Assembly (NCBI GenBank): GCA_020725425.1
Contig: DYFA01000054.1
Location: forward strand, 43,664 to 107,663
Reading direction: 5' to 3'
Source: Aneurinibacillus sp.
Lineage (GTDB): Bacteria > Bacillota > UBA5301 > DYFA01
Length of the DNA: 64,000 nucleotides
A program made the position numbers and the translations under genes. Position 1 is the first letter of the stretch. Every line of letters starts with the position of its first letter. The notes beneath the pieces are model-generated. The model saw nothing but the letters and a program-made list of their open reading frames with translations. It had not been told where the DNA came from and made no database searches. Of this stretch, positions 15,202-56,806 are shown one piece after another.

Positions 15202-15215
15202 GTCGGCCATCCTAC

Positions 15216-16220: not shown

Positions 16221-16223
16221 GAC

Positions 16224-16910: not shown

Positions 16911-16919
16911 CCCTCCCGG

Positions 16920-17597: not shown

Positions 17598-18300
17598 CCG
17601 GCCACCCCTCCCACCCGGGCCAGGTACTCCGCTGGAAAGGCCGCCCGGTCCACCTCGCCCCGGGGCGCCTGGTAGACCACCTTCCCCCGGGAGAGGATCA
17701 TCACCTGGTCGGCCAGGGAGAGACCCTCCTCGAAGTTGTGGGTGATCATCACCACCGTCCGGCGGTCGGTCTTCAGCCGGGCGAGTATCCGGCTCAGCAC
17801 GGCGCTCCCCTGTGGATCGAGGCCGGTGTACGGCTCGTCGAGGAAGAGAAGCGACGGCTGGTGGAGGATGGCCCGGGCGATCGCCAGCCGCTGCTGCATG
17901 CCGCGGGAGAAGTGCCGGACCGGGTCGTGGAAGTAGAGGGCGAGGCCCACCTCCTCCAGCGCCTCCGGGATGCGCCGGTCCACGTCGGCCACGCCGTACA
18001 TCCGCCCGTAGAAGCGGAGGTTCTCCGCGGCGGTCAGGTCGTCGTACAGGTAAGTGTGATGGGAGAGGACGCCGATCGAGCGGCGGAGCGCCTGGGCCGA
18101 GTCGTCGTCCACCGTCACCCCGTCGATCCAGAGCCTCCCCTCGCTCGCCTTGGTGAGCAGGCAGAGGATCCGGAGCAAGGTGGTCTTGCCCGCCCCGTTC
18201 GGCCCGAAGATGGTCAGGAACTCACCGGTCGGCAGGTCGAGGCTGATCCCCGAAAGGATCTGCCGGTCACCGATCCGTTTCCCCAGCCCCTCCGCCCGGA

Positions 18301-18304
<4 letters not shown>
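17585..18304 (-). CDS. ccmA: Haem exporter ATP-binding protein CcmA
   Basis: This ABC ATPase (239 aa) is paired with CcmB. The Walker A is GPNGAGKT, the signature is FSRGMQQRLAIARA, and the Walker B is LLFLDEPYTGLD. The signature begins with FSRGM rather than LSGGQ, a variant common in CcmA proteins. The ATG overlaps the ccmF stop (ATGA). The frame is open much further upstream, but that part is the shadow of ccmF. The gene lies between ccmF and ccmB in a tight operon. Confidence 0.9.
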
Positions 18305-20289
<1,985 letters not shown>

Positions 20290-21477: not shown

Positions 21478-21626
21478 CCCCTCCAATACCTCTCCACGCC
21501 GCCATCGTACAGCAGGAGACAATATGGAGGAATGATCCTGATGTGGGAGAAATTATAGGATCGTCGTTCCACGTTTTTCCAACGCGGATGAGGGACTGAG
21601 GTGAAGGTGAAAGGAGTGTGCAGACG

Positions 21627-23894
21627 GTGAAACGGAGACTCTTCCCGGTGGTAGTGTCCCTGCTCCTCGTAGGCCTGGCAGCCGCAACCGCCCTGGCTGC
21701 CCCCCCGTTGCGCCTGGTGACGGCAAGGGAGGGGCCCATCGCAGCCATGCTCCAGGCCAAAGGGCTGATCCCGCCGGGAGCCGACCAGGACCAGATCGAC
21801 GCGATCGTCCAGGCCTACCTGAACAGAGTCCGCTCCAAGTCCAACGACTGGGTGAACCCCAAGGCGGCGGCGAAGCTGGCTGCCCGGGAGACGGCCGCCA
21901 GCGAGCACGGCAACCTCCTCTACGGGAAGAAGCTCGGCAAGCTGGTCGGCGTGGCGCCGGCGGTCAACGTGACCTACGGCGACCCCGCCGAGACCGGCAA
22001 GATCCTGGTCATGCTGGTCGAGTTCACCGATCCGGCCCATAACCTGCTGCCCGAGCCGGACCGGACAGTCAACAACACCGACTACTGGGTGCCCGACTTC
22101 AGCGTTGCGCACTACCAGAAAATGCTCTTCGACCGGACCCCCGGGGCCCTGACCATGGCCAACTACTACATCCAGCAGTCCAACGGCCTGTACACGGTCG
22201 AAGGCCAGGTGTACGGCTGGTACCGGGTGAACAACCCCGAGTACGTCTACGGTCGCGACTCCGAGAGCGGCATCGACAACGCCATCAAGAACCCGGCGGA
22301 GCTGATCCGGGACATGCTGCTCCAGATGGAGGCGGACGGCCGGATCGGCGAGGTCCCCTGGAGCGAGTATGACGGCGACGGTGACGGATTTATCGACCAC
22401 ATCATGATCGTCCACGCCGGCGCCGGCCAGGAAGGCGGCGGCGGAGCCCAGGGCGACGACGCCATCTGGTCCCACAGCTCCTTCGCCGACTGGGGGAACA
22501 ATGGCATCCCCATCCCGGGCACGAACCTCCGCATCGGCCCCTACACCATGATGCCGGAGGACGGGTCGATCGGGGTCTTCTGCCATGAGTTCGCCCATGA
22601 CCTCGGCCTGCCCGACGAGTACGACACGATCTACTCCGGTGAGTCCTCTCCGGCCTTCTGGACGCTGATGGCCTCCGGCTCCTGGCTCGGCGACGACCAG
22701 GCGCTCGGCACCTGCCCGTCCAGCATCAGCATCTGGGGCCGGTACGTCCTCGGCTGGGTCAACCCGGCGGTCGTCACGCTGGACGACCTGAGGAGCGGCG
22801 CCCAGACCTTCAAGCTGGATCACTCAAACCACCTGACCGACGAGGCGCAGGCGATCCGGGTCAGCTTGCCCAAGAAGCCCTTCACCATCAGCGTCAACCT
22901 GCCGTACAGCGGGCTGTACGAGTGGTGGTCGGGGATGGGCGACCAGGTCGAGCGCTGCCTGAGCCGTGTCTTCGACCTATCGATGGTCTCCAGCGCCCAC
23001 CTCAACTTCTGGACCTGGTACGACATCGAGCAGGACTGGGACTACGGGTACGTCGAGGTATCCACCGACAACGGCGCCACCTGGACGTCGCTTCCGGGCG
23101 CCATCACCACCAACGACGACCCGAACGGCCAGAACGCCGGGAACGGCATCACCGGTTCGAGCAACGGGTGGATCCTGGCGAGCTTCGACCTGACACCCTT
23201 CGCCGGCCGGGAGATCATGCTCCGCTTCCGCTACTGGACCGACATGGCGGTGCAGGGCAAGGGCTGGTGCATCGACGACGTCACCATCCCGGAGATCGGC
23301 TTCTTCGACAACGTGGAGTCCGGCAACCAGGGCTGGTTGAAGACGGGCGGCCCGGGCGAGTGGACCATCTTCGAGGGCACCTCGACCAAGATGGTGACTC
23401 ACTACTACCTGATGGAGTGGCGCGACTTCACGGAGTTCGACCGGAGCCTCAGGACCTGCTACAACTACACCGGCGCCACCTGGGCGGAGCGTTTCTCCTA
23501 CAACCCGGGCCTGCTCCTGTGGTACCGCGACACTGCCTACGTCGAGAACTGGGTCGGCGTGCACCCGGGCCACGGCTTCCTGCTCGTGGTGGACTCCCAC
23601 GACACGATCCTGCGCACGCCGAACAAGGGCCTGCCGTGGCGGACCCGGATCCAGGTCATGGATGCGCCGTTCGGCGTCGAGCGGACGATCGAGAACACGC
23701 TCACCCGGGACGACAAGAGCCGCACCTACCAGTCCCTGCCGCCGGTGCCGAACTTCGACGACAACAAGACGTACCTGAGCCCGGCCTACCCGATCAGCGG
23801 CGTCCTGCTCCCGAACTACGGCGTCAGCTTCCGGGTCCTCGGCGCGGCGCCCGACCAGTCGGCCGCTCTGGTGAGCATCCACACGAAGCCGTAA
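21627..23894 (+). CDS. Secreted M6-family metalloprotease (immune inhibitor A-like)
   Basis: This is a secreted zinc endopeptidase (755 aa). A signal peptide (residues 1-23, ending TALAAPP) is followed by a propeptide and the M6 catalytic domain. The zinc motif HEFAHDLGLPDEYD starts at residue 320 and is complete (HExxH plus downstream acid). The C-terminal half has a beta-rich carbohydrate/MAM-like region typical of immune inhibitor A proteins. GTG 21627 is preferred because AAAGGAG sits ten bases upstream. A GTG at 21618 would almost touch that site. A strong terminator follows. The role is probably scavenging of extracellular protein. Confidence 0.9.
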   Translation: MKRRLFPVVVSLLLVGLAAATALAAPPLRLVTAREGPIAAMLQAKGLIPPGADQDQIDAIVQAYLNRVRSKSNDWVNPKAAAKLAARETAASEHGNLLYGKKLGKLVGVAPAVNVTYGDPAETGKILVMLVEFTDPAHNLLPEPDRTVNNTDYWVPDFSVAHYQKMLFDRTPGALTMANYYIQQSNGLYTVEGQVYGWYRVNNPEYVYGRDSESGIDNAIKNPAELIRDMLLQMEADGRIGEVPWSEYDGDGDGFIDHIMIVHAGAGQEGGGGAQGDDAIWSHSSFADWGNNGIPIPGTNLRIGPYTMMPEDGSIGVFCHEFAHDLGLPDEYDTIYSGESSPAFWTLMASGSWLGDDQALGTCPSSISIWGRYVLGWVNPAVVTLDDLRSGAQTFKLDHSNHLTDEAQAIRVSLPKKPFTISVNLPYSGLYEWWSGMGDQVERCLSRVFDLSMVSSAHLNFWTWYDIEQDWDYGYVEVSTDNGATWTSLPGAITTNDDPNGQNAGNGITGSSNGWILASFDLTPFAGREIMLRFRYWTDMAVQGKGWCIDDVTIPEIGFFDNVESGNQGWLKTGGPGEWTIFEGTSTKMVTHYYLMEWRDFTEFDRSLRTCYNYTGATWAERFSYNPGLLLWYRDTAYVENWVGVHPGHGFLLVVDSHDTILRTPNKGLPWRTRIQVMDAPFGVERTIENTLTRDDKSRTYQSLPPVPNFDDNKTYLSPAYPISGVLLPNYGVSFRVLGAAPDQSAALVSIHTKP

Positions 23895-26157: not shown

Positions 26158-27402
26158 TCACCGCCCTCCGTAGCGGGCCACGATCCGCCGCACGCTCTCG
26201 ATGAGTTCCTCGCGCAACTCGGCCGGCTCGAGCACCTCGGCGGAACTGCCGAAGCTCCTTACCCAGACCCGAATCTCATGGAGCCCCGACACCTCGTCCG
26301 TGTAGATGACCGAACCGCTCCCCTCTTCCTCGATCTTCGCCTTAGTCCGGTGGGCCGTTTCGCGCTTGAGCCGCGCCATCACGTTGTACTCGTCATAGAA
26401 CCGGATCCTGACCCGATGCAGTTCCCCCCGCTCGACCCCCCAGCACGGCGCCAGGTGTCCCTGGAGGTCGAATCCCTCGGGCGGCGTGAACGTCTCCTGC
26501 ATCACCCCAACGTCGGTCATACGGTCCAGGCGAAAGTGGCGCAGAGCCTCCTGGCCTTGAGCGGAGCGCCCCCCGGCCACCAGATACCAGGCATCGTGAA
26601 ACCAGTAGTAGACCAGGCCCAACGGCGCCACCGTCCGTTGGCTCGCCTCCCCCGCCAGGGTGGTGTAGAAGAAGCTCACCAGGCGTCTCTCCTGGCAGGC
26701 CCGTTCGAGTAAGTCCACGCGTTCCTCGATCTCCGGCGGCTGCAGATAGTACCGCCCCTTGACCAGGCGGACGGGGTTGTGGCGGCCTTCTGCTTCCCGC
26801 AAAACGCTGGAGCCGGCCTCCCCGAGCAGGCAGGAGCGAAGCTTCTCTTCCGCGCTCCGCAGCGCCTCTCCGCGAGGCAGCAGTTGCCGCTGAATGTCCA
26901 GATAGCTCAGGAGGGCCAAGGCTTGGTCAGGAGAAAGGGTGAGGCGGGGCAGAAAGCCGCCGCCAGGGTAATACCGCCCCTCCCGCAGGTCAATCAGGCC
27001 GCGCTCCTGGAGAGAGGCCAGGTCCCGCAGGATCGTGCGCTCGCAGACCTCGAAGCGGCGCGCCCCCCTTTCGCAGAGCCCAGCCGGCGCAAGGGAACCC
27101 GGTTCTTCGTAGATCCACTTGAGCAGGGAGAGCTGGCGAACCTCCCGCTCCGTGGCCGGAGCCGTCGCTTGAGGAGCGTCTTCTTTGATGGACACCAGGC
27201 ATAACCGGTCACCTTGGCGGGCGACTTCAATACCTCGCCGGCGCATTTCTCCCAGGTCCCGCTGGACGGTGCGCCGACTGACCGCCAGCCGGGCGGCCAA
27301 CGCCTCCACGGTGAAAGCCCCCGGCTCTTCGGCGAGCAGGGCGCAGAGTGCAGCCTGCCGACGTGCCTTCTCCACCGCACTCCACCCGCTTTCGACCGAC
27401 AT
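26158..27402 (-). CDS. WYL-domain transcriptional regulator (first of a tandem pair)
   Basis: This 414-aa regulator has two HTH segments before the WYL domain: FTVEALAARLAVSRRTVQRDLGEM near residue 35, and a second around residue 115 (ERTILRDLASLQERGL). The WYL core is PLGLVYYWFHDAWYLVAG, then RHFRLDRM, with a C-terminal WCX-like region. ATG 27402 is chosen, because the longer frame would run through the intergenic region and into the divergent activase gene. The divergent position suggests it may control the glycyl radical activase, but that is inference. Confidence 0.83.
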   Translation of the reverse strand: MSVESGWSAVEKARRQAALCALLAEEPGAFTVEALAARLAVSRRTVQRDLGEMRRRGIEVARQGDRLCLVSIKEDAPQATAPATEREVRQLSLLKWIYEEPGSLAPAGLCERGARRFEVCERTILRDLASLQERGLIDLREGRYYPGGGFLPRLTLSPDQALALLSYLDIQRQLLPRGEALRSAEEKLRSCLLGEAGSSVLREAEGRHNPVRLVKGRYYLQPPEIEERVDLLERACQERRLVSFFYTTLAGEASQRTVAPLGLVYYWFHDAWYLVAGGRSAQGQEALRHFRLDRMTDVGVMQETFTPPEGFDLQGHLAPCWGVERGELHRVRIRFYDEYNVMARLKRETAHRTKAKIEEEGSGSVIYTDEVSGLHEIRVWVRSFGSSAEVLEPAELREELIESVRRIVARYGGR

Positions 27403-27564: not shown

Positions 27565-28575
27565 ATGCGCGAAGAGTCCGGGTTGATCTTCGACGTCCAG
27601 CGGTTTTGCCTTCACGACGGTCCCGGCATCAGAACGACCGTCTTCCTCAAGGGGTGTCCACTCCGTTGCCTGTGGTGCAGCAACCCGGAGTCCCAGAGCG
27701 GCGTACCTGAACTGCTTCATTATCCCCAGCAGTGCATCCGGTGCGGCCAGTGCCTCGATGCGTGCAGGTATGGGGCAATACAACCTGCAGCCGGAAAACC
27801 TGAGAATTCAGCGCTGACACCGGTGATCGAGCGGGCGGCCTGCAAGGGGTGTGGGGCATGCGCCAAGGTTTGCCCGTCGGGCGCCCTCAGGCTGGCGGGG
27901 GAGGTCATGACCTCCACCCAGGTCCTGGAACTGGTCCGCCGTGACCTGCCTTTTTTTCAGCGGACGGGCGGCGGGCTCACCCTGTCGGGGGGCGAGCCTC
28001 TGTTACAGCCGGCGTTCGTGCTGTCGACCCTGGAGGGGGCGCAACAACTGGGCGTTCCGGCCGCGCTCGAGACGGCCGGCCTCTGTGCCGCCGACGACCT
28101 CGTCAGGGCCGGAAGGCTGTGCGAGGTTGTCCTTTTTGACCTGAAGCACGCTGACCCGGTCAAGCACCGGCAATTGACCGGTCACGGCAATTCTGAGATC
28201 CTGGAAAACCTCCGCCTCTTAGTCGAGCGCGGTTGTCGCGTGACGGTCCGGATCCCCTTGGTCAATGGCTTGACCGCGACGGTGGAGAACGCCCGAGCGC
28301 TCAGCGCTATCTTGAAGGAAGTGGGAAAGGCTCACTGCCGGGCCGCGCCGGAAGGCGGGATCATGGGTGTGGAACTGATGCCCTATCACGAACTGGGCGC
28401 CGGCAAGTATGCCGCCCTGGGAAGACCGAACCCCCTTCCAGACGCCATGAGAGCATTGGTGGGCGAGGGGGTGACCCCGCACGTCAGTCAGGAAGTAGTG
28501 GCCAACCTGCAAAGGATAGTCACCGAGGACTCCGGCTTCCCCTGCCGCGCTCCGCGCGAGTTGAGGGGCACCTAG
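27565..28575 (+). CDS. Glycyl radical enzyme activase (radical SAM)
   Basis: This activating enzyme (336 aa) uses S-adenosylmethionine and a 4Fe-4S cluster to place the glycyl radical on its partner. The radical SAM triad is Cys31, Cys35 and Cys38 (GCPLRCLWC), preceded by DGPGIRTTVFLKG. A ferredoxin-like insert binds two more clusters (Cys57/60/63/67 and Cys93/96/99/103), as in activases of glycerol dehydratase-type enzymes rather than PFL activase. The gene is transcribed toward its presumed partner, with 18 bases between the two stops. This convergent layout is unusual. Confidence 0.92.
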   Translation: MREESGLIFDVQRFCLHDGPGIRTTVFLKGCPLRCLWCSNPESQSGVPELLHYPQQCIRCGQCLDACRYGAIQPAAGKPENSALTPVIERAACKGCGACAKVCPSGALRLAGEVMTSTQVLELVRRDLPFFQRTGGGLTLSGGEPLLQPAFVLSTLEGAQQLGVPAALETAGLCAADDLVRAGRLCEVVLFDLKHADPVKHRQLTGHGNSEILENLRLLVERGCRVTVRIPLVNGLTATVENARALSAILKEVGKAHCRAAPEGGIMGVELMPYHELGAGKYAALGRPNPLPDAMRALVGEGVTPHVSQEVVANLQRIVTEDSGFPCRAPRELRGT

Positions 28576-28593: not shown

Positions 28594-30804
28594 TCAACAG
28601 CGCGCGATGATCTGGTCTTGGATGTCCCGGTCAAGGGTGACGAAGAAGGCGCTGAACCCCCACACCCGGACCAGGAGGTCGCGGTAACTTGCAGGGTCAG
28701 CCTGGGCCTTCCTGAGAGTCTCCCGATCGACCAGATTGAATTGGATCTCCATGCCTCCCAAGCTGAAGTAGGTTCTAACCATCGCCTCCACGAGCTCCTG
28801 CTGATCAACAGCCAGGAGAGAGACAGGAAGGGCCAGGTCGAGCGCCATTCCGTTGGCGGCCCGGGAAAAGTCGATCTTACTGACCGAGCGGATGACGGCC
28901 GTGGGTCCTTTGGTGGCTGTCCCGGCCGCGGGTGAGCAGTTGGCAGCGATCGCCGCTCCGCTCAGCCGCCCGTCGGCCGACGCGCCGATCTGTTTCCCGG
29001 CGGCGTGATACCAGGAAGCCCAGAAAGCCGGTTTGAAGGCGAAACCGTATGGATTGCGTTGCGCGAGAATCACGTCGCAGCAGTGACTCGCGATCTCCCG
29101 GGCGAGGGAGTCGACGTAGTCGTCGTCGTTTCCGAACTTGGGGCACCTTGAGATGATCTCCGTGCGCAACCCTTCATACCCCTGGAAGTTCTTCTTCAGC
29201 GCCTGGACGAGTTCGGGCAGGCTTATCCGTCGTTCCTCGTAGACCAACTTGCGGATGGCGGCGAGCGCGTTGGCGACGTTGGGCAGTCCGCGGCAAGCCG
29301 TCCCAGTGTAGTAGTACTTGCATCCACCAGCGGTGCGATCCAAGCCTCTGAGCATGCATTCCTCGAAAGTGGCCGACAACAAGGGAGTTGGGCAGATGGA
29401 ACTGATGTGGGACATGACCCGGTTGCACTCTCGGGCTTTGCGTTGGATGGCGTACTCGAGCTGTGCCTTATAAGCCGCCATGAGTGCCTCGAACCCGCCA
29501 CGGTCAAGCGCTTCGGCGTCACCGGTCGGGGGGCCGCAGGTGTCGCCGGTGTCCATGACCGCGCCAAAACCCAACAGGGCTTTGGTCTGGTCGGGGGCGT
29601 GATCACCGGTGAGAATGGGCTCACCGTTATTCAGGGCCAGTTCCAGGTACTTGAGGAGTTCCAGCCAGACGCCGATCATGTGATCGCCTGTCTTCCCGGG
29701 AACGAGCGGTTCCACGCAACCCTGGCAGGCCCAGTTGACCGCGTCGGCCCGCTCGATCCCCACTGATTCCAGCGCTGGGATGACGGCCTCGTCGTTGTGG
29801 AAGGCCAGCGCCCCCGGGGCGTGACGCAGCACGGCAAAGGCCGCCCGGTACAGTGAAGCGGACGTCCGGGAGTGGCAACGGATGGAGAAGGTGGGCGTCC
29901 GGACCGGCAACCCAACCCGCGCCCAAAGACATAGGTAAGTCAATTCGTTGGCGGCGTCCGAGCCGTCCGGCAGGATTCCGCCCAGGGTGATCGAGGTTCC
30001 GTTGTCTGCGTCCCGCCAGTCCCCGAAGATGTAGTCGGCGTAGTTCAGTTTCACGTAGAATTGTTCGAGCAGCTCGAGGGTGCGCTCTTCGTCCAGCAGA
30101 TTGCGGTCCAGGTCCCGGCGCCAGTAAGGATAGAGGAGTTGATCCAGGCGACCGAGAGGCACCTGACAGGGCCCTACGGTCCGGAAGACGGAGTAGGTGA
30201 ACCAGAGGGACTGCAGCGCTTCGTGGAAAGTGGTTGCCGGGCCGGCGGGAACTCTTTCACACAGGCTGGCCAAGGACAGCAGGTGCTCCCGCCGGGCGGC
30301 GCCAATGTCCGGCTGACCTGCTTGTTGTCGTAGGAGCGCGGCGTAGCGCGCCGAGTACTCCACCACCCCTTCACAGGCGATTCGGGCGGCCTTCCAGAAA
30401 GCAACTTGCTCCGGTGTGGACGGGGAGCATGCCGAGAGGTGCTCGGCCGCTTGAGCCGCCAGTCCACCGAAACCGAATTCCAGCACACGGGTGAAACCGG
30501 GAACCACGTGGGAGAACTGAGTTTCCGGTCCTATACCCAGGTGTTGGACCCGGACCCTTTCCGACTCCGAGGTGAATTCGGGGAACGGCATCGTCGGGCG
30601 GCACCCGACCAATTCCTCGTCCTCACCGACCCACAGCGGAACGTGTCGAAGCAGCAGTCGAGTGGCCAGGGCTTGGCGTATGACGATAGGCTCCTCCATG
30701 ATTGACGCACCTTCGTGGTCCACCAACCGCAGGCGGTCGTGGCGCACCCACTTGTCCGTGCTCTTCTGCAGTTGGGCGATGAGGGCCCCGGTCCGCGGCT
30801 TCAC
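28594..30804 (-). CDS. Glycyl radical enzyme, eliminase/lyase type, substrate unknown
   Basis: This is an oxygen-sensitive radical enzyme (736 aa). The active-site loop reads QGCVEPL: the thiyl Cys followed by Val and the general-base Glu. This pattern occurs in diol dehydratases, choline lyase, isethionate lyase and related enzymes. Pyruvate formate-lyase instead has adjacent cysteines. The glycyl loop is RVWGFSAFF, about 20 residues from the C-terminus, where RVxGYS is usual. The GTG at 30804 lies seven bases after a GGAGGG site. It is the last gene of the long leftward operon, after the aminotransferase. Annotation as PFL would be misleading. Confidence 0.88.
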   Translation of the reverse strand: MKPRTGALIAQLQKSTDKWVRHDRLRLVDHEGASIMEEPIVIRQALATRLLLRHVPLWVGEDEELVGCRPTMPFPEFTSESERVRVQHLGIGPETQFSHVVPGFTRVLEFGFGGLAAQAAEHLSACSPSTPEQVAFWKAARIACEGVVEYSARYAALLRQQAGQPDIGAARREHLLSLASLCERVPAGPATTFHEALQSLWFTYSVFRTVGPCQVPLGRLDQLLYPYWRRDLDRNLLDEERTLELLEQFYVKLNYADYIFGDWRDADNGTSITLGGILPDGSDAANELTYLCLWARVGLPVRTPTFSIRCHSRTSASLYRAAFAVLRHAPGALAFHNDEAVIPALESVGIERADAVNWACQGCVEPLVPGKTGDHMIGVWLELLKYLELALNNGEPILTGDHAPDQTKALLGFGAVMDTGDTCGPPTGDAEALDRGGFEALMAAYKAQLEYAIQRKARECNRVMSHISSICPTPLLSATFEECMLRGLDRTAGGCKYYYTGTACRGLPNVANALAAIRKLVYEERRISLPELVQALKKNFQGYEGLRTEIISRCPKFGNDDDYVDSLAREIASHCCDVILAQRNPYGFAFKPAFWASWYHAAGKQIGASADGRLSGAAIAANCSPAAGTATKGPTAVIRSVSKIDFSRAANGMALDLALPVSLLAVDQQELVEAMVRTYFSLGGMEIQFNLVDRETLRKAQADPASYRDLLVRVWGFSAFFVTLDRDIQDQIIARC

Positions 30805-30819: not shown

Positions 30820-32220
30820 TCAGGCCAGCTCTTTCGCCGCCTTGATAGACTGGTCGAGCACCTCGAGGATCAAGTCGATCTCTTCCTTCGTGATTATGTA
30901 GGGAGGCATGAACGTGATTCGGTTGCCGAAGTAACCCACCCGGAGCAGAATGACACCCCTGCGCAGGGCCTCGCTCGCCACCCGCGCGGCCAGTTCAGGC
31001 GCAGGTTGCTTGGTTCGCTTGTCTCGTACGAACTCCACCCCCAGGGCCAACCCCAAACCGGCGGCGTCCGCCAGAACCTCGTGCTCGGCTTGAAGGGCTT
31101 TGAGGCCGTCGAGGAAGTAGTTCCCCACTTCCGTGACGTGGGCCAGCAGGTTCCGCCGTTCGATCTCCGCGATCACCTCGAGAGCCGCCCGGCAGCCCAC
31201 GGGGTTCCCGTGGAAGGTGCCCATGTGCTTGTCGGGGCGGTTCGCCCAAGCCTCTGCGATGTCCCGGCGCGCGATCAGGGCCGACAGCGGCCAGATGCCC
31301 CCCGAGATCGACTTGCAGATGGTGATCATGTCCGGCGTGACCCCGAAGTGCTCGCAGGTGAACCACTTGCCGCTCCGGCCGATGCTCATCGGAATGGCGT
31401 CGCTCAAGAAGATCAGGCCGTAGCGGTCGCAGATCCGGCGCAACCCCTGGTAAAACTCGGCCGGGGGCACGATCATCCCGCTGTGCGTCTGCACCGGCTC
31501 CACGACGAGCCCCGCTACCAGCGAGGTGCCGGTATTCGGATCGTACACCCCATACTCGGCCGACTCGAAGAGCCGCTCGATCCAAGTAACACAGAACATG
31601 TCACAGGAGGGGTACGTCCGCTCGAAAGCGCATCGGTAACAGTAGGCGTACGGCACTCGGATAACGTTGAAGTTTACGCCCGGGAACCCCTCCCGGTTAT
31701 AGGCGTTGGCGGCCAGATTGACGCTGGCCACCGTCCGCCCGTGATAGCCGCCGAAGAAGGTGATGATGTCCCGGCGGGGCGGCGGAGAAGCGTAGTGCAT
31801 GAGTTCCAGGGCAAGGTCCACCGTCGGGCCGCCGCCGAGTTCGAATTGAACCTGGCCGTGCTTCAGAAAGCCCGGAGCGATCTCGAGCAACCGCTGCGCA
31901 AGCTCGGCCCTGGGGATGTTCGGCCAGTCGGAGACGTGCATCAAGCGCTCCGCCTGTTCCATGGCCACCTTGATCAGTTGTTTCGGGGAATACCCGAGGC
32001 ACGAAGTGGCGAACGCTCCCAAGGTCTCGATGTACACGTTCCCGTCAACGTCCGTGACGTAGATGCCGTCCTGGCTCTCCAGTACCGGGACCTTGGCCGA
32101 ATCGTCCATCACCGCCCGCCAGAAGGTCCCTCCTGTTTCATTGCGCAGCAACAGGTCGTAGTACTTGCGTGACAGTTCTCCCGGTATATCCCGGAGCATT
32201 CCCGGCCTCTTTCCCTTCAT
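30820..32220 (-). CDS. Class III aminotransferase (omega-aminotransferase type)
   Basis: This PLP enzyme (466 aa) moves an amino group between an omega-amino or similar compound and a keto acid. The PLP-lysine region is ITICKSISGGIWPLSAL, preceded by GRSGKWFTCEHFGVTPD. The pyridine-contact Asp is in FLSDAIPMS, where DEV is usual. A cysteine-rich insert (YAYCYRCAFERTYPSCDMFC) is present, as in clostridial relatives. The ATG at 32220 has GGGAGG eight bases upstream. It is a paralogue of the aminotransferase at 43091. The gene lies 67 bases after the ABC ATPase gene and just before the glycyl radical gene. Confidence 0.88.
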   Translation of the reverse strand: MKGKRPGMLRDIPGELSRKYYDLLLRNETGGTFWRAVMDDSAKVPVLESQDGIYVTDVDGNVYIETLGAFATSCLGYSPKQLIKVAMEQAERLMHVSDWPNIPRAELAQRLLEIAPGFLKHGQVQFELGGGPTVDLALELMHYASPPPRRDIITFFGGYHGRTVASVNLAANAYNREGFPGVNFNVIRVPYAYCYRCAFERTYPSCDMFCVTWIERLFESAEYGVYDPNTGTSLVAGLVVEPVQTHSGMIVPPAEFYQGLRRICDRYGLIFLSDAIPMSIGRSGKWFTCEHFGVTPDMITICKSISGGIWPLSALIARRDIAEAWANRPDKHMGTFHGNPVGCRAALEVIAEIERRNLLAHVTEVGNYFLDGLKALQAEHEVLADAAGLGLALGVEFVRDKRTKQPAPELAARVASEALRRGVILLRVGYFGNRITFMPPYIITKEEIDLILEVLDQSIKAAKELA

Positions 32221-32287
32221 GGCTCTTACCTCCCAGTACGTGATATTGGGAACACTTAGTCTGCCAGGGCGCCTCACCGGCAACCCG

Positions 32288-33406
32288 CTAGAACTTGACC
32301 AGGGTTTGCTCGGTCTGAGCGTCGAACAGGTAAACCGAGGACGGATCGAAGTCCAGGGCTACCCTCTCCCCGACCCCGGGGGACTTTGAGGCCTGAGTTA
32401 CGGCCACGACCCGTCCCTCCTCGGTTTCAAGATGGACGTGAGCCTCCTCTCCCAAGTACTCCACCACGGCCACCTTCCCCCGGAACAGAGCGCCTTGGGT
32501 CCCGGACGTCAACGCTACTCTCCGCGGGCGAACCCCAAGGATGACCTCCTGACCGTCCTGTTCGGAACGGAGCCGGTCGCATGCCGGGCGGGGCACCGCA
32601 AGGCGGAACCCCCTCGTCTCAACCGTCCAGGGGTTCTCCTGGGCGCCGGAACCTGCCTCTCCTCCGCGGACAAGCCTCCCGGTGAAGGTATTGATCGTGG
32701 GATTGCCGACGAACTTGGCCACAAAAAGGTTCGCCGGGTTCTCGAAAACCTCGGGCGGCGTACCCACCTGCTGTAACCGTCCGTGGTTCATGATGGCGAT
32801 GCGTTCGCCAATGGCCATGGCCTCTTCCTGGTCGTGGGTGATGTAGATGGCGGTCACTCCGACGTTGTGGCACAGAATCTGGATCTCGGTCCGCATCGTC
32901 ACCCGGAGCTTGGCGTCCAGGTTGCTGAGCGGTTCATCGAGCAGAAACAGATCGGGCTTCCTGACCAGCGCTCTGCCCAGGCAGACCCGCTGGGCCTCTC
33001 CCCCCGACAGTTGGCTCGGTTTGCGGTCCAGCAGGTGATCAACCCTCAGAGTGGCGGCGATGCTCTCCACCCGGCGTTTGATCTCCGCCGGGGGCGTTTT
33101 CCTGATTTTCAAAGGGAAGGCGATGTTTTCGTAACAGGTCAGGTGAGGATAGAGGGCGTAGGTCTGGAACACCATCGCGACGTTCCGATCCTTCGGTTCG
33201 AGATCGTTGATGAGCCGGCCGGCTTTGTAGATCTCGCCCGCGTCCGGCTTCTCAAGGCCGGCCGCCAGGTTGAGGACGGTCGACTTGCCGCTGCCCGAAG
33301 GCCCCAGGAGCACCAGAAGCTCACCGTCCCGCACGTCCAGGGAGAAGTCGCTGACGGCGGCCACCTTGCCGTAGTTCTTGGAGACGTTCCTGAACGAAAT
33401 ACTCAA
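32288..33406 (-). CDS. Sugar ABC transporter ATP-binding protein (MalK/UgpC type)
   Basis: This ATPase (372 aa) drives carbohydrate-type importers. The Walker A is GPSGSGKS, the signature is LSGGEAQRVCLGRAL, and the Walker B is LFLLDEPLSNLDAKLR. The C-terminal part has the TOBE-like regulatory domain (ILGVRPRRVAL, then EYLGEEAHVHLE). It follows two permeases and the SBP gene in the leftward operon. The rightward operon has an SBP and two permeases but no ATPase, so this protein may serve both importers. Sharing is known for MsmK-type ATPases, but here it is inferred. Confidence 0.9.
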   Translation of the reverse strand: MSISFRNVSKNYGKVAAVSDFSLDVRDGELLVLLGPSGSGKSTVLNLAAGLEKPDAGEIYKAGRLINDLEPKDRNVAMVFQTYALYPHLTCYENIAFPLKIRKTPPAEIKRRVESIAATLRVDHLLDRKPSQLSGGEAQRVCLGRALVRKPDLFLLDEPLSNLDAKLRVTMRTEIQILCHNVGVTAIYITHDQEEAMAIGERIAIMNHGRLQQVGTPPEVFENPANLFVAKFVGNPTINTFTGRLVRGGEAGSGAQENPWTVETRGFRLAVPRPACDRLRSEQDGQEVILGVRPRRVALTSGTQGALFRGKVAVVEYLGEEAHVHLETEEGRVVAVTQASKSPGVGERVALDFDPSSVYLFDAQTEQTLVKF

Positions 33407-33449: not shown

Positions 33450-34310
33450 TTACCGCTTGACGGTACCAAAGGTCATCCCGCGCACCAGGTAGTCTTGGAT
33501 CAGGACGGCAAACGCCAGAACCGGTAAGGCGATGCACGTCCCGAGGGCGCCCACTTCGCCCCAAATCTCCCGCCGCCGGGTTCGGATGCCGGCAGCCATG
33601 ACCGGCAGGGTCTTGGCTTCTGTCCCGGTCAGCACCAGGGCGAAGAGGAATTCGTTCCAGAGGGTGATGAAGCAGAAGAGCGCCGTGGCCACCATACCGG
33701 GTAACGCCAAGGGGATCACGATTCGGCGCAGCACCCCCAGGGTGGAACACCCATCGACCATGGCGGCTTTCTCCAATTCGATTGGTATGTCGGAGAGGAA
33801 CCCCTTCATCAACCAGACGGCGAGCGGAAGGGCCTGAGCCGCGTAAATCCAAATGAGACCCACTCTGGTATCGAGCAGGCGCAGTTGCCGGAACATCAAG
33901 AACAGCGGCACGGCGACAGCTATGGGAGGCAGCATCTTCGTGCTCAGCATCCAGAATGCCAGATCTTTGCTGCCCCGGAACTTCAGCCGCACAAACCCGA
34001 AGGCGGCCATGGTCCCGAGCAGGACCGCGACCAGGGTCGCACTCACGACCACGCTCAGGCTGTTCAGCATGTATCGAAACAGCTGCCGCTCGGTGATGAC
34101 CTGCACGTAGTGTTCGAGGGTCGGCTTGAAGAGCCAGACCGGCGGCAGGGTGAACGTCTGGACCCTCGATTTCAGCGAGGTCGCGAGCATCCAGTAGATC
34201 GGAAAGAGGAAGACGAGGCTCACCAACCCGATGGCCAAGAGGTAACCGATGCTCCGCATCAACCTGGCCCGGCCGGCTGCTGTCCGCGTGTCGCGCTTCC
34301 CGTTGCTCAT
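33450..34310 (-). CDS. Sugar ABC transporter permease (MalG type)
   Basis: This inner-membrane permease (286 aa) belongs to the MalG/UgpE family. Six hydrophobic segments are visible. The cytoplasmic coupling loop reads ELEKAAMVDGCSTLGVLRRIVIPLALPG, matching the EAA motif, and the family's FFxxWNEFLFAL region is present as FITLWNEFLFAL. Its ATG overlaps the stop of the MalF-type permease gene (ATGA). It works with the ATPase downstream and the SBP upstream. The substrate is unknown. Confidence 0.9.
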   Translation of the reverse strand: MSNGKRDTRTAAGRARLMRSIGYLLAIGLVSLVFLFPIYWMLATSLKSRVQTFTLPPVWLFKPTLEHYVQVITERQLFRYMLNSLSVVVSATLVAVLLGTMAAFGFVRLKFRGSKDLAFWMLSTKMLPPIAVAVPLFLMFRQLRLLDTRVGLIWIYAAQALPLAVWLMKGFLSDIPIELEKAAMVDGCSTLGVLRRIVIPLALPGMVATALFCFITLWNEFLFALVLTGTEAKTLPVMAAGIRTRRREIWGEVGALGTCIALPVLAFAVLIQDYLVRGMTFGTVKR

Positions 34311-35203
34311 GACGCTCCTCCCCCGCTGTACTGTTGACTTGGCGCGGCGGTCAGCTTGACCAGGCGAGTGGTCGCCACGATGCTGGCCACCAGGAAGATA
34401 TAGGACAAGGCAGAAGCATAGCTCACGTCACAGAGCACGAAACCCTGCTTGTAGATGTACATGCTGAGGGTCTCCGTGGCCGAACCCGGCCCCCCTCCGG
34501 TCAACACGTAGATGACATCGAAGCTCACCAGCAGTGAAAGGAGCCGGAAGAGAGTGGCTACGGCGATGATCGGCCGTAACATGGGCAGCGTTATGTAGCG
34601 TAGCGTTTGCCACCTGGTGGCGCCGTCGACGCGGGCTGCCAGGTAGGCCAGGGGAGGCAGCGATTGCAATCCCGCCAGCACGATCAGCACGACGAACGGA
34701 GTGGACTGCCAGATGTCGACCAGAATCAGCGAGAGCTTGGCTAAGTTGGGGTAGGCCAACCATTCCACGGCTCCTGCTCCCACAAGCGACAGAAAGTAGT
34801 TTAGGATTCCGAAATTGGTGTTGTACATGAGCGCCCACATCAAGCCCACCACCACCGGGGTGACCATCATGGGCAGCAGGATACAGGCCCGGAAAGCCTT
34901 CAGGCCGCGGCTCTTACGGTTCAAGAGCAGCGCGATCCCTATCCCGAGAACCAGTTCGATGACGAGAGACGGAACAAGGATCTGGAAGGTGGTGACCGTC
35001 GCCTGCCACAGGCGCGGATCGCGGAGCGCCCGGACAAACTGGTACAGGCCTACGAACCGTCGCCCGAACGGGTCGGTGAGGTTGTAGTTCTGCAGGCTCA
35101 GGAGCACGGAGTAGACTAAGGGCACGATCGAGGTCGAAAGCAGAATCAAGGTAGCCGGCCCGACCAGGACTAAGAGCAGCAGTCGGCGTCTTCTCGTCTC
35201 CAT
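34307..35203 (-). CDS. Sugar ABC transporter permease (MalF type)
   Basis: This is the partner permease (298 aa from this start). It has six hydrophobic segments and an EAA loop near RVDGATRWQTLRYITLPMLRP. The motif LTGGGPGSATETLSMYIYKQGF is typical of MalF/UgpA proteins. The ATG at 35203 is preferred because AAGGAT lies just upstream; an in-frame start at 35239 is possible. It overlaps the MalG-type gene by four bases. A strong hairpin separates it from the SBP gene. Confidence 0.88.
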   Translation of the reverse strand: METRRRRLLLLVLVGPATLILLSTSIVPLVYSVLLSLQNYNLTDPFGRRFVGLYQFVRALRDPRLWQATVTTFQILVPSLVIELVLGIGIALLLNRKSRGLKAFRACILLPMMVTPVVVGLMWALMYNTNFGILNYFLSLVGAGAVEWLAYPNLAKLSLILVDIWQSTPFVVLIVLAGLQSLPPLAYLAARVDGATRWQTLRYITLPMLRPIIAVATLFRLLSLLVSFDVIYVLTGGGPGSATETLSMYIYKQGFVLCDVSYASALSYIFLVASIVATTRLVKLTAAPSQQYSGGGAS

Positions 35204-35253
35204 TCTATCCTTGGTCCCTCCCCCGGATGGCCAGTCCATGACGAGTTCAGACG

Positions 35254-35296: not shown

Positions 35297-36637
35297 TCAT
35301 TTGTAGTAGCCTGCGCCGCGCATCACGTCGTCCAGTTTGGCTTGGGCATCGTCTAGGGCCTCTTTCGGCGATTTCTGCTTTGACGCGGCTTCCGACAGTG
35401 CCAAGCCCACGATTTCCAGGATGGCCGGAAACTCGGGGACCGGGGGCGGTGGGGTGCTGTACGCCGCGGTCAGGTTGGAGGCCGGCCCGTGCGGGAATCG
35501 CTTCGCGACCTCCGCGTTTTTGTAGGTCGACACCCTCATCGGGGCTGCGCCACCGCTCAGCGTCACTGCCAGGTCGGTCTCCTTGCTGAGAAGCCACCTG
35601 ATGAACTCCTTGGCGGCTTCCTTGTTTCTGCTTTGCTTATTGATGCCGATTCCCCAGCCGCCGAGGAGTGAGCGCTTAGTCACCTCACCGGGCGTAGGCG
35701 TGTAACCGAGCTTCCCGGCAACCTTGGACTTGCTGGGATCCTCGTATTCCCCCATGAACACGTTCCAGTTAAGCTGGATGGCGACGTCACCCTTCTGCAT
35801 GGCGGCGGTCATGTCGCCCCAGCCATAACCAAGCGTGCCCGGCGGGCAGTAGTTGTGGACCATCGTCACGAAGTCGGTGAGCGCCCTGACGTTCGTCTTG
35901 CTGTTGAAGACCGGCCGCTTCGTCTTGGGGTCGATGATCTCCCCGCCGTAGGGGTACATGAAATGGGTGAAGGCACAGTAGATGGGGTCGTCGCGCTGCA
36001 TTTGCGTGGCGGTGCCCCAGAGGTCGATCTTTCCGTCTCCATCGGTGTCTCGGGTAAAGAACTTCACCACGTCCATGAACTGCTTCATAGTCTCCGGAGG
36101 CTTGAGGTCATATCCGTACTTGGCCTTGAACTCGGATCTGTATTTCGGTGACTCGAACAGGTCCTTCCGATAGACCTGAAGCATCTGAACCGGGATGAAA
36201 CCGACACCGATCTGGCGATCCTTGTACCGATAACCCTCCACATGACGGGAGAGGAGGTCGGCGAAGTCGAAGTCACGGTCGTTCTTGAGTTCGTTAATGA
36301 AAGAGTCCAGCGGCAGGAGGGTGTCGGTGCGTCCGAAAGCCCCCACGAACCAGAGGTCGAACCCGACCAGGTCGGGCTTCCCGGTTCCGGAGATGAGTGA
36401 GAGAAGCTGCTTCTCCATCAGACTGGAGAGGGGATATTCCGTGATGGTCACGTCGATTCCGGTGAGCTTCTTGAATTCGGGCAGGTGTTTGCGGATCGCG
36501 TAGACTTGCGGGTCATCGACCATGATGAACTCGAGCTTCACGCCGTCAAAGCGCCGGTAGCTCCGGGCCAAGCCCGGAGTGCAAGCCGCGCCCAAGACCA
36601 AAGCCAGGACGAACGCGAGTGACAGAGCCCTTTTCAT
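35297..36637 (-). CDS. Sugar ABC transporter substrate-binding protein (family 1)
   Basis: This secreted solute-binding protein (446 aa) has a signal peptide (residues 1-20) containing a Cys in LGAACTPG, which might be a lipobox although the spacing is not classical. The mature part has the family 1 fold: LEFIMVDDPQVYAIRKHLPEF, then the family stretch ETMKQFMDVVKFFTRDTDGDGKIDLWG. It is the only SBP of the leftward operon. It resembles the SBP at 44569 in that stretch, suggesting related ligands. The ligand is probably a carbohydrate or polyol derivative. Confidence 0.9.
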   Translation of the reverse strand: MKRALSLAFVLALVLGAACTPGLARSYRRFDGVKLEFIMVDDPQVYAIRKHLPEFKKLTGIDVTITEYPLSSLMEKQLLSLISGTGKPDLVGFDLWFVGAFGRTDTLLPLDSFINELKNDRDFDFADLLSRHVEGYRYKDRQIGVGFIPVQMLQVYRKDLFESPKYRSEFKAKYGYDLKPPETMKQFMDVVKFFTRDTDGDGKIDLWGTATQMQRDDPIYCAFTHFMYPYGGEIIDPKTKRPVFNSKTNVRALTDFVTMVHNYCPPGTLGYGWGDMTAAMQKGDVAIQLNWNVFMGEYEDPSKSKVAGKLGYTPTPGEVTKRSLLGGWGIGINKQSRNKEAAKEFIRWLLSKETDLAVTLSGGAAPMRVSTYKNAEVAKRFPHGPASNLTAAYSTPPPPVPEFPAILEIVGLALSEAASKQKSPKEALDDAQAKLDDVMRGAGYYK

Positions 36638-36691: not shown

Positions 36692-37345
36692 TTACCCCCG
36701 CCTTGTCCGGGCCTCCGTCACGACCCGGAGGAAGGCTTGCGCCCTTGCCGTCACGACATCCCACTGCTCCTGTGCGACCGCACTCCGGTTCACCAATTCG
36801 CCGCCGACACCCAGCGCGGCCGCCCCCGCCTCAATGAACCCTGCCGCATTATCGAGGTTGACTCCCCCTACGGCCATCATCTCGACTTGCGGCAAGGGCC
36901 CGCGGAGCTCCCTGAAGTAGCGGGGACCCAGCGAACCGGCCGGGAAAACCTTGACGATCTCCGCCCCAGCCGACCAGGCGGATAGGATTTCCGTCGGGGT
37001 CATAGCCCCTGGTACCGGGAGTACGTCATAGCGATGGCACGTCTCGATGACCTCGAGGTTTAAGTTGGGCGCCAACACGAAAGAGGCCCCTGATAGGATG
37101 GCAGTGCGGGCTGTGTCGGCGTCCAGGACGGTACCGGCGCCCACGATCAGCCCAGCGGCGTGCTTGTCCACCAGTTCCTCGATCATCTTCGGCGCCCCCC
37201 GGGTGTTGAAGGTCACTTCGATCGCCCTTATCCCTCCTTGCCTTAGGGCTTCACACAGTCTACCCAGGGTCGACGCGGAGGTGCCCCTGACGATTGCCAC
37301 CACTCCGGATTCTCTGATCACCCGGGCAATCTCGTCGCGTTTCAC
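36692..37345 (-). CDS. KDPG/KHG aldolase family protein
   Basis: This class I aldolase (217 aa) splits a 2-keto-3-deoxy sugar acid (phosphate) into pyruvate and an aldehyde. The catalytic Glu is in IEVTFNTRG and the Schiff-base Lys in EIVKVFPAGSLG. The phosphate-site glycines are in VGGVNLDNAAGF. The length is typical of the trimeric enzyme. It overlaps the dehydrogenase gene by four bases. With a kinase, a dehydrogenase and sugar transporters in the same operon, a sugar-acid pathway is likely. Whether the substrate is KDPG or an analogue is open. Confidence 0.9.
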   Translation of the reverse strand: MKRDEIARVIRESGVVAIVRGTSASTLGRLCEALRQGGIRAIEVTFNTRGAPKMIEELVDKHAAGLIVGAGTVLDADTARTAILSGASFVLAPNLNLEVIETCHRYDVLPVPGAMTPTEILSAWSAGAEIVKVFPAGSLGPRYFRELRGPLPQVEMMAVGGVNLDNAAGFIEAGAAALGVGGELVNRSAVAQEQWDVVTARAQAFLRVVTEARTRRG

Positions 37346-38310
37346 TGACAGCCCCCCTTCTTTCCTGTCTCACCGGTCGTACGGGTCAGCACATCGATGG
37401 TGTTCTGGGCCGCCATCATGCTCATCCTTCGCACGGCCTCCCTGGTGTAGCCCCCCGTATGGGCGGTAATGAGCACGTTCGGCAACCCGCAGAGCGGGCT
37501 GTCCATGGCCGGCTCATGCTCCAGAACGTCAAGCGCCGCCCCGGCGATGGTTCCGGAAATGAGGGCCTCATGGAGTGCCTGCTCGTCGACGATACCGCCG
37601 CGGGCGGTGTTGATGAGATAGGCGGAGGGTTTCATGAGCCGCAACTCCCGGGCCCCGATCAAGCCCCTGGTCTGTTTGTTCAGGGGGACATGGAGAGTGA
37701 CGAAGTCCGAGGCGGCGAGCAGCGCATCAAAGCTGGTGTAGGTGGCCTCGTTGGCATCTGCCCATCCTGGATCCGGCACCGCGTCGAAGCAGAGAATCCT
37801 CATCTGGAAGCCCCGGGCCCGCTGCGCCACACACCTTCCGATTCGGCCGGTACCGATAATCCCTAAGGTCTTCCGCCACACCTCGCTCCCGAGGACCCGC
37901 TGCCACCGCCCGCTCCGGACCTGCCCGGCAGCATCCATGAGCCGCCGCGCACAAGCCAGGACGAAAGTCATCACCAGGTCCGCCACCGACTGGTCGTTCG
38001 CCCCGGGCGTGTTCGTCACCACGATGCCCCGCTCAGCGGCTGCCTGCAGGTCGATGTTGTCCAAGCCCACCCCGTAGCGGGAGATGACTTTCAGCCTGGC
38101 GGCCCCGGCGATCACAGAAGCATCCACCCTGTCGTTGCCGGTAATGAGGGCGTCGGCGCCCTTGATTAAGCCCGCCAACTCTTGCGCGGATAAGGGACGA
38201 TCCAGCCCACTCCTCACCACCTCGCACCCAGCCTGGTGCAAGAGCGCAAGCGGTTCCTCTGACCCTTCGCCGAAGGAACGTGCCGTAACGACTACCTTGA
38301 AGGCTGTCAC
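37342..38310 (-). CDS. D-isomer specific 2-hydroxyacid dehydrogenase
   Basis: This is a cytosolic NAD-dependent dehydrogenase (322 aa) of the phosphoglycerate/hydroxypyruvate reductase family. The NAD-binding motif is TLGIIGTGRIGRCVAQRA. Catalytic residues are visible: Arg in INTARGGIVDE, Glu in LDVLEHEPAMD, and His in LITAHTGGYT. No ACT domain follows, so it is not a feedback-regulated SerA. GTG 38310 is chosen because AGGTGG lies eight bases upstream; 38322 is also in frame. It overlaps the aldolase gene. The substrate is probably a sugar-derived 2-hydroxyacid. Confidence 0.88.
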   Translation of the reverse strand: MTAFKVVVTARSFGEGSEEPLALLHQAGCEVVRSGLDRPLSAQELAGLIKGADALITGNDRVDASVIAGAARLKVISRYGVGLDNIDLQAAAERGIVVTNTPGANDQSVADLVMTFVLACARRLMDAAGQVRSGRWQRVLGSEVWRKTLGIIGTGRIGRCVAQRARGFQMRILCFDAVPDPGWADANEATYTSFDALLAASDFVTLHVPLNKQTRGLIGARELRLMKPSAYLINTARGGIVDEQALHEALISGTIAGAALDVLEHEPAMDSPLCGLPNVLITAHTGGYTREAVRRMSMMAAQNTIDVLTRTTGETGKKGGCQ

Positions 38311-38322
38311 GTTTTCCACCAC

Positions 38323-39852
38323 CTACCGCTCGAGCGCGGCCATTTCCTTAAATAGAGGCTGCAAACCGTCGTGGAGCGACTTGAAGACCCGGTACGCCCG
38401 TTCATAGTGCGCCGCCCTCTCCGCATCGGGCTCGTAGCGGGCCTCAAGACTGACTACCCGTTGGACCGCCTCAGAAGCGTCCTTGTACACGCCGACCCCC
38501 AACCCGGCCAGGATGGCGGCGCCGACCACCCCCCCCTCGAAGTTCTTCAGAGTCACAATCGTCTTCCGGTAGACGTCTGCCTTGATTGACGACCACAGCG
38601 GGCTCCTGGCGCCGCCACCCACTGCTCGCACCTCTTCAATCCGGATTCCCTCGGCCTCGATCAGATCGAGGCTTTGGCGCAGGTCGTACGCTACCCCCTC
38701 CATGATCGCCCGGACGCAGTGTCCCAGAGTATGGCGAGGCGTCAGGCCGAAGAACACCCCCCGGCTGTCGCTTGTCCCCAGCGTCCGTTCGCCCAGCAGA
38801 TAAGGAAGATAGAACAGACCTTCCGCCCCTGCTGGAACGTCCTGGGCCTTGCGGTTCAAGAGTTCGTAGGCGGAAATCCCCGCCGCCCGGGCCTCGGCGA
38901 CTTCAGCCGCGGCAAAAGTATCCCGAAACCATTTGTAGCTGCCGCCCCCCGCATCCAGGATGCCGAACGAGATCCACCCTCCCCCCGGGATCACATGGTG
39001 AAGGTGCATGAGTCGCCGGTCATAGAGGGGCTGCGGGACATACACGGAGACGTCGGCCGCGGTCCCGGTGACGTCGCAGGCCTGCCCGGGCAGCGTGATC
39101 CCCGCTCCAAGCAGGAGGCACATCATGTCCCCACCGCCGCAGACGACCGGCGTCCCCTTGGGCAACCCCGTGACCTTGGCCGCCTCCGCCGTGACCGAGC
39201 CGATCACCGACGAAGACTCCACGATGGGCGGCAATTTGGAGGGATCCACCCCGAGGAGGTCGCACAACTCCGGAGACCAGCGGCGGGTCCGGGCGTCGAA
39301 GAGATATGTGCCCGAAGCCTCGGAGTAGTCGGTGTACCTCTCGCCGGTCAGGCGCAGGTTCAGATAGTCTTTGCAGGTCAGGAAGGCTTCCGCCCGGTCG
39401 TAAACCTCCTGCTGGTTCTCCTTGAGCCACCGGAGCTTGAAGCCGGTCCAGGCTGGGACTGGGGCGTTTCCTGTGAGGCGGAGCATCTCCCCCTCGTCCG
39501 CCTGTGCCGCCACGGCTGCACACTGGTCGGCACTCCGCTTGTCACACCAGAGGAGAGCGTCCCGGGAGACGAGCCGGCCGGAGCGATCGACGGGGACAGT
39601 GGCGTGCATCTGGCCCCCGACGCCGACAGCCAGGACCTGCGCCCCGGACAGAGTCGCCAGGACGTCCCGGATGTTCTCGACCGTGCTCTCCCACCACAGC
39701 TCGGGATCCTGCTCAGCCCAACCCGGCCGCGGACAGCGGAGAGCATACGGTCGGGACGAACTCGCCAGGACACGCCCCTCCAGGTCGAGAAAGGCCACCC
39801 GGCCGCTTTCCGTGCCGATATCGACACTCAATAGACCCGCTGGCTTCGTCAT
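38323..39852 (-). CDS. FGGY-family carbohydrate kinase (xylulokinase-like)
   Basis: This ATP-dependent sugar kinase (509 aa) has an N-domain starting with LLSVDIGTESGRVAFLD and the substrate-loop GVGGQMHATVPVDRSG typical of xylulokinase/gluconokinase-type FGGY proteins. The C-domain has the nucleotide site (DVTGTAADVSVYV, then VRAVGGGARSPLW). The second FGGY motif is present near residue 365 (FFGLTPRHTLGHCVRAIMEG). It lies between the AOR-cupin gene and the dehydrogenase gene. The sugar cannot be told from the sequence alone; a ketose or sugar acid is likely. Confidence 0.9.
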   Translation of the reverse strand: MTKPAGLLSVDIGTESGRVAFLDLEGRVLASSSRPYALRCPRPGWAEQDPELWWESTVENIRDVLATLSGAQVLAVGVGGQMHATVPVDRSGRLVSRDALLWCDKRSADQCAAVAAQADEGEMLRLTGNAPVPAWTGFKLRWLKENQQEVYDRAEAFLTCKDYLNLRLTGERYTDYSEASGTYLFDARTRRWSPELCDLLGVDPSKLPPIVESSSVIGSVTAEAAKVTGLPKGTPVVCGGGDMMCLLLGAGITLPGQACDVTGTAADVSVYVPQPLYDRRLMHLHHVIPGGGWISFGILDAGGGSYKWFRDTFAAAEVAEARAAGISAYELLNRKAQDVPAGAEGLFYLPYLLGERTLGTSDSRGVFFGLTPRHTLGHCVRAIMEGVAYDLRQSLDLIEAEGIRIEEVRAVGGGARSPLWSSIKADVYRKTIVTLKNFEGGVVGAAILAGLGVGVYKDASEAVQRVVSLEARYEPDAERAAHYERAYRVFKSLHDGLQPLFKEMAALER

Positions 39853-42109: not shown

Positions 42110-42125
42110 CTGGATCTCCTCCTGT

Positions 42126-56805: not shown

Positions 56806-56806
56806 G

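Follow-up and report, generated by a model that had tools for sequence, protein, structure and literature searches.

The window analysed here, a 64-kb stretch of DNA, carries on its minus strand a gene for a glycyl radical enzyme (GRE), at the coordinates and with the length of 736 residues given in the initial annotation. Its reading frame is open, and the product scores above the Pfam cut-offs of the PFL-like (425.5 bits) and Gly_radical (83.2 bits) domains. The full frame comprises 738 codons from a GTG at 30810. A Shine-Dalgarno sequence, GGAGGG, lies seven bases upstream of the GTG at 30804 and too close to that at 30810; since it is well spaced for 30804 alone, the 736-residue protein is the likelier product. 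The genes of the locus are listed in Table 1.

Table 1. Features of the GRE locus, its divergent arm and the GRE-free sister cluster; positions refer to the window unless another contig is named.
Feature	Position	Strand	Basis
WYL-type regulator, divergent from activase (start approximate)	26158-27402	minus	HTH_11, WYL, WCX
Radical-SAM GRE activase	27565-28575	plus	TIGR02494 300.7 bits, over cut-off 174
Glycyl radical enzyme (GRE), 736 aa	28594-30804	minus	PFL-like and Gly_radical; motifs; alignment; Shine-Dalgarno start
Class-III PLP aminotransferase-like protein AT3a	30820-32283	minus	PF00202; alignment
ABC importer ATPase, UgpC/MalK type	32288-33406	minus	NCBIfam 392 bits, cut-off 432
Sugar-type ABC permease	33450-34310	minus	NCBIfam matches GlcU, MalG
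Sugar-type ABC permease	34307-35239	minus	NCBIfam matches UgpA, GlcT
Extracellular solute-binding protein, SBP_bac_1	35297-36637	minus	PF01547
KHG/KDPG aldolase	36692-37345	minus	TIGR01182 171.5 bits, over cut-off 156; PF01081
D-2-hydroxyacid dehydrogenase, PGDH/GhrB-like	37342-38322	minus	PF02826, PF00389; below all equivalog cut-offs
FGGY sugar kinase, xylulokinase-like	38323-39852	minus	TIGR01312 397 bits, over cut-off 380
Aldehyde:ferredoxin oxidoreductase (AOR) with C-terminal cupin fusion	39872-42151	minus	PF01314, PF02730, PF07883
GntR/UTRA regulator, upstream of operon	42126-42869	minus	PF00392, PF07702
Second class-III PLP protein AT3b, divergent arm	43091-44494	plus	PF00202
Second solute-binding protein, paralog of 35297-36637	44509-45882	plus	Sequence and position
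ABC permease, divergent arm	45973-46887	plus	Matches permeases of related loci
ABC permease, divergent arm	46926-47798	plus	Matches permeases of related loci
L-fucose isomerase-like protein	47830-49158	plus	PF02952 51.5 bits; 64% identical to C24 copy
GRE-free sister cluster L114 (G000:C24:66001-86000)	6178-18825	minus	

The motifs ACQGCVEPLVPGKTG, which forms the Cys loop with the GCVEP thiyl loop, and RVWGFSAFFVTLDRDIQDQIIARC were confirmed, along with the LGR(V/L)DQ motif, as in CutC, and a C-terminal glycyl loop reading RVWGFSAFF; both the Cys-Val-Glu and the RVWGFS loop noticed in the initial annotation are present. In the numbering of the 736-residue protein the key residues are the catalytic His99, placed before the loop, Cys363, the catalytic Glu365 and Gly716, all four invariant in an alignment of 20 sequences, and 7 of 88 strongly conserved columns are altered in the window GRE. 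The AlphaFold2 model shows a confident GRE fold (pLDDT 85.4, pTM 0.89), and its top Foldseek matches are propanediol dehydratase, glycerol dehydratase and CutC (26-29% identity); the match to the isethionate lyase IslA / IseG is at 24% identity. The open frame, intact core and good model rule out a pseudogene or sequencing artefact. The gene is real and intact, and its predicted product is an unusually divergent, oxygen-sensitive radical enzyme.

The protein is shorter than most of its relatives, which have about 790-830 residues, as had been noticed before, mainly because of a single internal deletion: about 55 residues are missing directly before the catalytic His, a segment carrying a PYWxGR motif in the relatives. 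Set against this loss is an insertion of 20 residues behind the Cys-loop helix. The glycyl loop had been singled out as RVWGFS instead of RVxGYS. The GFS part proved to be a clade-level character, with RVSGFS in 10 of the 11 members of one clade of short GREs, and the Trp alone is unusual: among the roughly 120 GREs inspected, RVWGF has a single further occurrence, in a Phycisphaerae protein (L003:7286-9502).

The GRE gene is the last of a ten-gene operon that runs on the minus strand from the AOR gene at 42151, with gaps of -4 to 57 bp, and it starts 15 bp after the AT3a gene. The activase gene is convergent with it, tail to tail, with 18 bp between the stop codons. AT3a keeps the PLP lysine and the aspartate; DA replaces the usual DE, and the Glu is lost. 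The start codon of the AOR-cupin gene is uncertain, and the gene overlaps the GntR gene by 26 bp. Judging from its gene content, the operon looks built for the import and breakdown of a sugar-like compound. The aminotransferase and sugar importer of the initial annotation were both found, and of the ORFs listed for the 64-kb window none was seen to encode a microcompartment shell protein; that description of the context was incomplete, since Pfam and NCBIfam searches added the AOR-cupin, FGGY kinase, 2-hydroxyacid dehydrogenase and KDPG aldolase genes. A terminator and promoter scan and a repeat search for operators at the locus returned nothing useful, and no aminotransferase homolog at E<=1e-100 was found in 398 other genomes of the phylum.

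Several other features were observed in the window. An integrase-core (rve/HTH_21) transposase gene (49206-50060, minus) lies beside the end of the divergent sugar arm, and a CRISPR type III-B-like (Cmr) locus (51345-63288, minus) encodes Cas10, RAMP proteins, a Cas_APE2256 protein and Cas3 with HD and helicase domains. A second AOR (9117-10955, plus) is encoded in a cluster of its own, in which a ferredoxin-like gene precedes it and a small MoaD-like ORF and a flavoprotein-like gene come next. An immune inhibitor A-type M6 metallopeptidase is encoded at 21618-23894 (plus).

On another contig of the same genome, C24, the cluster recurs without the GRE, the aldolase and the 2-hydroxyacid dehydrogenase. 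The set there consists of genes for a GntR regulator, a GPI-type cupin, an AOR 51% identical to that of the operon, a ribose-type (sugar) ABC importer, two tandem class-III PLP proteins, a fucose-isomerase-like protein and an FGGY kinase. The absence of these three genes from C24 makes them look like a module added to a duplicated sugar-type cluster. The sugar-type clusters of the genome thus contain four class-III PLP paralogs, AT3a, AT3b and the C24 pair (L114 9109-11926, minus). All four keep the PLP lysine and have in common a CxxC...CxxxC motif, which the aligned relatives of solved structure lack. The genome carries a second GRE, with a GCAEP loop (L110, G000:C33:25001-45000, 9823-17363, plus), which groups with the YbiW/AG6P-lyase clade; its gene is followed by those for an activase, a fucose-isomerase-like protein, an aldolase-like protein and an FGGY kinase, and lies behind an NMT1/taurine-type ABC importer. 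A C-terminal GRE fragment with the motif RVAGYCAYF, a frame of 172 residues with the rest missing (L111, G000:C2, 2588-3106, minus), looks like the remnant of a third GRE.

Membership of the window GRE in known families was judged by NCBIfam equivalog cut-offs, tree clades and AU tests. Every NCBIfam GRE equivalog cut-off is missed by a wide margin. For TIGR01774, the PFL2/glycerol dehydratase subfamily, the score is 468.9 bits against a curated cut-off of 678.2, while six other GREs tested score 516-942. Rejected candidates are choline TMA-lyase CutC (TIGR04394, 333.6 of 1050 bits; grouping rejected, AU p=0.001), trans-4-hydroxyproline dehydratase HypD (NF043068, 348.7 of 1100 bits; AU p=0.028), the sulfopropanediol dehydratases HpsG and HpfG (NF048011 and NF048009, 346 and 362 of 1000 bits), AG6P lyase YbiW (32.5% identity; AU p=0.0002), the indoleacetate and hydroxyphenylacetate decarboxylases (NF033718 and NF033715, 300 of 1100 and 202 of 1150 bits) and pyruvate formate-lyase (TIGR01255, 88 of 994 bits). 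A phage or plasmid origin was rejected as well, the only phage or plasmid matches being ordinary GREs at <=35% identity. For PflD / AM6P lyase the score is below the cut-off (NF007437 (PRK09983), 324 of 1109 bits), and grouping with the PflD-like L100 clade is borderline (AU p=0.063). Grouping with glycerol/propanediol dehydratase is borderline too, with the GRE outside that clade in the trees and AU p=0.056. The AU test does not reject grouping with an uncharacterised short-GRE clade (p=0.40), the window GRE being its sister in one tree and apart from it in the focused tree. In the trees it forms a lone long branch, the longest in the focused tree.

A genome-contig scan and about 1500 sampled genomes, obtained in four phylum draws of which two overlap heavily, gave a best local identity of 44%; no GRE exceeded this value in these samples, outside which a closer relative may exist. 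The best whole-protein identity among the sampled sequences is 38% (L100). In a published GRE network, characterised activities separate at about 60% identity (PMC6453916), and by this yardstick the window GRE forms a cluster of its own. On sequence criteria, the GRE belongs to no characterised family among those tested. Clustering in a known family, which the initial annotation had named as the outcome that would overturn its reading, was sought with equivalog scores, trees and AU tests and was not found, and the description as a GCVEP-type, non-PFL enzyme without a characterised family is supported, with a loop of the C-x-E eliminase type. The annotation had also taken Cys-Val-Glu to exclude PFL chemistry and to indicate elimination. 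The former is supported; C-x-E also occurs in GRE decarboxylases, so the loop alone is no proof of the latter.

The loci of the nearest GREs, many proteins of which were named by eye from sequence without profile search, are of two kinds, carbohydrate loci and AOR loci. Among the carbohydrate loci, PflD-like GREs occur with a ROK kinase and an ABC importer (L100, L102), and other GREs with GH42, GH2, ABC and FGGY proteins (L103), with an ABC importer and a UroD-like protein in Treponema (L011), and with an allose-type ABC importer and ROK kinase on a chloroflexote plasmid (L121). At L009 the GRE gene adjoins genes for a class-III PLP protein, an FGGY kinase and an aldolase-like protein. AOR genes are present in GRE loci L099, L101, L106, L107 and L113. 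In AOR-bearing genomes, an AOR gene lies within about 5 kb in 5 of 12 related GRE loci, where roughly 0.4 would be expected by a hand estimate from AOR counts per genome, the loci not being independent. At L107 the gene order is GRE, activase, GldA-like, 2-hydroxyacid dehydrogenase and AOR. At L113 a glycerol-dehydratase-like GRE is accompanied by an aquaporin-like protein and an AOR, a pairing which suggests that the AOR may remove the aldehyde made by this GRE. These loci suggest that GRE and AOR are recurring partners in anaerobic Bacillota; the AOR would then oxidise the GRE aldehyde with ferredoxin, taking the place of a CoA-dependent dehydrogenase. No description of such a partnership was found in the literature searched, and a literature search for sugar GREs beyond the AG6P/AM6P lyases gave nothing matching.

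The gene, its motifs, its operon and its divergence are established by these data; the chemistry, the substrate and the order of steps are inferred. Judged by the conserved Cys/Glu/Gly set and by the nearest structures, the most likely chemistry is radical elimination, and a substrate derived from carbohydrate is likely from the operon content. We give an even chance to the GRE being a functional radical eliminase, with dehydration as its most likely reaction, which acts at one step of a pathway degrading an imported sugar, or a compound derived from sugar, under anaerobic conditions. Further points in favour are the C24 duplicate with its sugar genes, the carbohydrate loci of several relatives and the nearness of AOR genes to related GREs. 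The activase would generate a radical on Gly716, which would pass to Cys363, and the resulting thiyl radical would abstract hydrogen from a hydroxyl-bearing carbon. Glu365 would deprotonate that hydroxyl, and the substituent next to it would depart, probably in the form of water. This would give a deoxy aldehyde or ketone, pulled forward by the co-encoded enzymes: the AOR would take an aldehyde product and the KDPG aldolase a 2-keto-3-deoxy acid.

The single most likely reaction, itself rather unlikely to be the right one, would convert an aldonate or its phosphate to a 2-keto-3-deoxyaldonate for the KDPG aldolase, which is present in the operon without a co-encoded dehydratase. Abstraction of the C2 hydrogen and loss of the C3 hydroxyl would yield the exact substrate of the aldolase, and the GRE would stand in for a classical sugar-acid dehydratase. 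NCBIfam found no Edd in the genome, which is 97% complete, as both ILVD_EDD proteins score as IlvD. The second IlvD-type protein, or the one strong enolase-superfamily match in the genome, could supply the aldolase instead of the GRE. A route of dehydration alone leaves the aminotransferases unexplained, which counts against the dehydratase reading, and the xylulokinase-like FGGY kinase and the fucose-isomerase-like protein suggest a route via a ketose instead of an aldonate.

In another reading, the GRE would release ammonia or an amine from a substrate with vicinal amino and hydroxyl groups, for example a derivative of an amino sugar; the same amino compound would be handled by the class-III PLP enzymes, and the AOR would oxidise the resulting aldehyde. 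This C-N lyase chemistry is unlikely. The short distance between the GRE and AT3a genes, the four PLP paralogs in sugar-type clusters, the gene neighbours at L009 and the position of CutC among the closest folds speak for it, whereas the CutC grouping is rejected (AU p=0.001) and the C24 PLP pair occurs without a GRE, which indicates that the PLP enzymes do not need one. The ring of an FGGY-phosphorylated cyclic sugar might also be opened, in the manner of AG6P lyase (YbiW) or AM6P lyase (PflD). The precedent is the cleavage of 1,5-anhydrohexitol-6-phosphates by YbiW and PflD (PMC12441222), and the relative with the highest identity, L100, is PflD-like and accompanied by a sugar kinase and an ABC importer. 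Such a reaction is improbable, given 31-33% identity to PflD and YbiW, the rejection of the YbiW grouping (p=0.0002), the borderline grouping with the PflD-like L100 clade (p=0.063) and an operon kinase of the FGGY type, not ROK/PTS.

We hold it equally improbable that the enzyme is a divergent short-chain diol dehydratase, converting a small diol from sugar cleavage to an aldehyde that the AOR would oxidise with ferredoxin. The AOR in the operon and beside several other GREs would fit, as would the top fold matches to propanediol and glycerol dehydratases and a grouping with them that is not firmly rejected (p=0.056). The residues binding diols in glycerol dehydratase are replaced in the GRE, though, which also lies outside the clade of these enzymes in the trees and matches no equivalog, and the operon contains no alcohol or propanal dehydrogenase. 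Chemistry other than elimination, such as decarboxylation, or a degraded function would accord with the longest branch in the focused tree, the loss of a helical segment ahead of the active-site His and the occurrence of C-x-E in GRE decarboxylases. It is very improbable in view of the intact core residues, high conservation and adjacent activase, the decarboxylase-model scores given above, which fall far below their cut-offs, and the lack of aromatic-acid genes seen nearby.

Uncharacterised GRE clusters are common, and many have no assigned function. A lone GRE lineage encoded with an importer, a kinase, a dehydrogenase, an aldolase and an AOR is a compact lead to new radical carbohydrate chemistry. 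If the aldonate reading is true, it would represent a radical, oxygen-sensitive variant of the Entner-Doudoroff pathway coupled to a ferredoxin-reducing AOR.

In comparison with known systems, the GRE shares with propanediol and glycerol dehydratase (5i2g, 9rcp, 1r8w) the fold, the GCVEP loop, the His before it and the glycyl loop, but identity is 33-35% and about 55 of their residues are missing. At the positions of the diol-site residues His281, Ser282 and Asp447 of glycerol dehydratase (GDH numbering) it has Cys, Gln and Ile, respectively, so its pocket is not that of the known diol dehydratases; no substrate-specific residue set was recognised in the protein. With CutC it has in common the fold and the LGR(V/L)DQ and GCVEP motifs, but identity is 31% and microcompartment genes are absent. 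PflD / 1,5-anhydromannitol-6-phosphate lyase is likewise 31% identical, and the window GRE differs in its neighbours and in the lack of a PTS. L100, the best whole-protein match and encoded in an ABC and sugar-kinase locus, is 53% identical to E. coli PflD.

The Phycisphaerae GRE at L003:7286-9502 resembles the window GRE in RVWGF, the deletion before the His and an insertion at the same site after the Cys-loop helix, but has a GCNE instead of a GCVE loop and 29% identity. The two group at support 97 in one tree, and the grouping disappears with more long branches, so that their kinship is tentative. In L003 this gene (minus) and another divergent GRE gene (9566-11887, plus), of different deep lineages, lie back to back. 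The uncharacterised short-GRE clade (L003p, L103, L004, L006, L008-L011, L015, L150) includes two Lachnospiraceae proteins (L006 9560-11725, plus; L015 9767-11920, plus) encoded inside apparent surface-polysaccharide clusters, an unusual setting for GREs, with neighbours named by eye as glycosyltransferases, LicD-like and cytidylyltransferase-like proteins. This clade shares with the window GRE a short N-terminal half and the GFS glycyl loop, but identity is <=34-35% and its members have an extra 14-residue deletion near residue 310, absent from the window GRE, which is further distinguished by the Trp in its glycyl loop and an activase nearer to that of L099.
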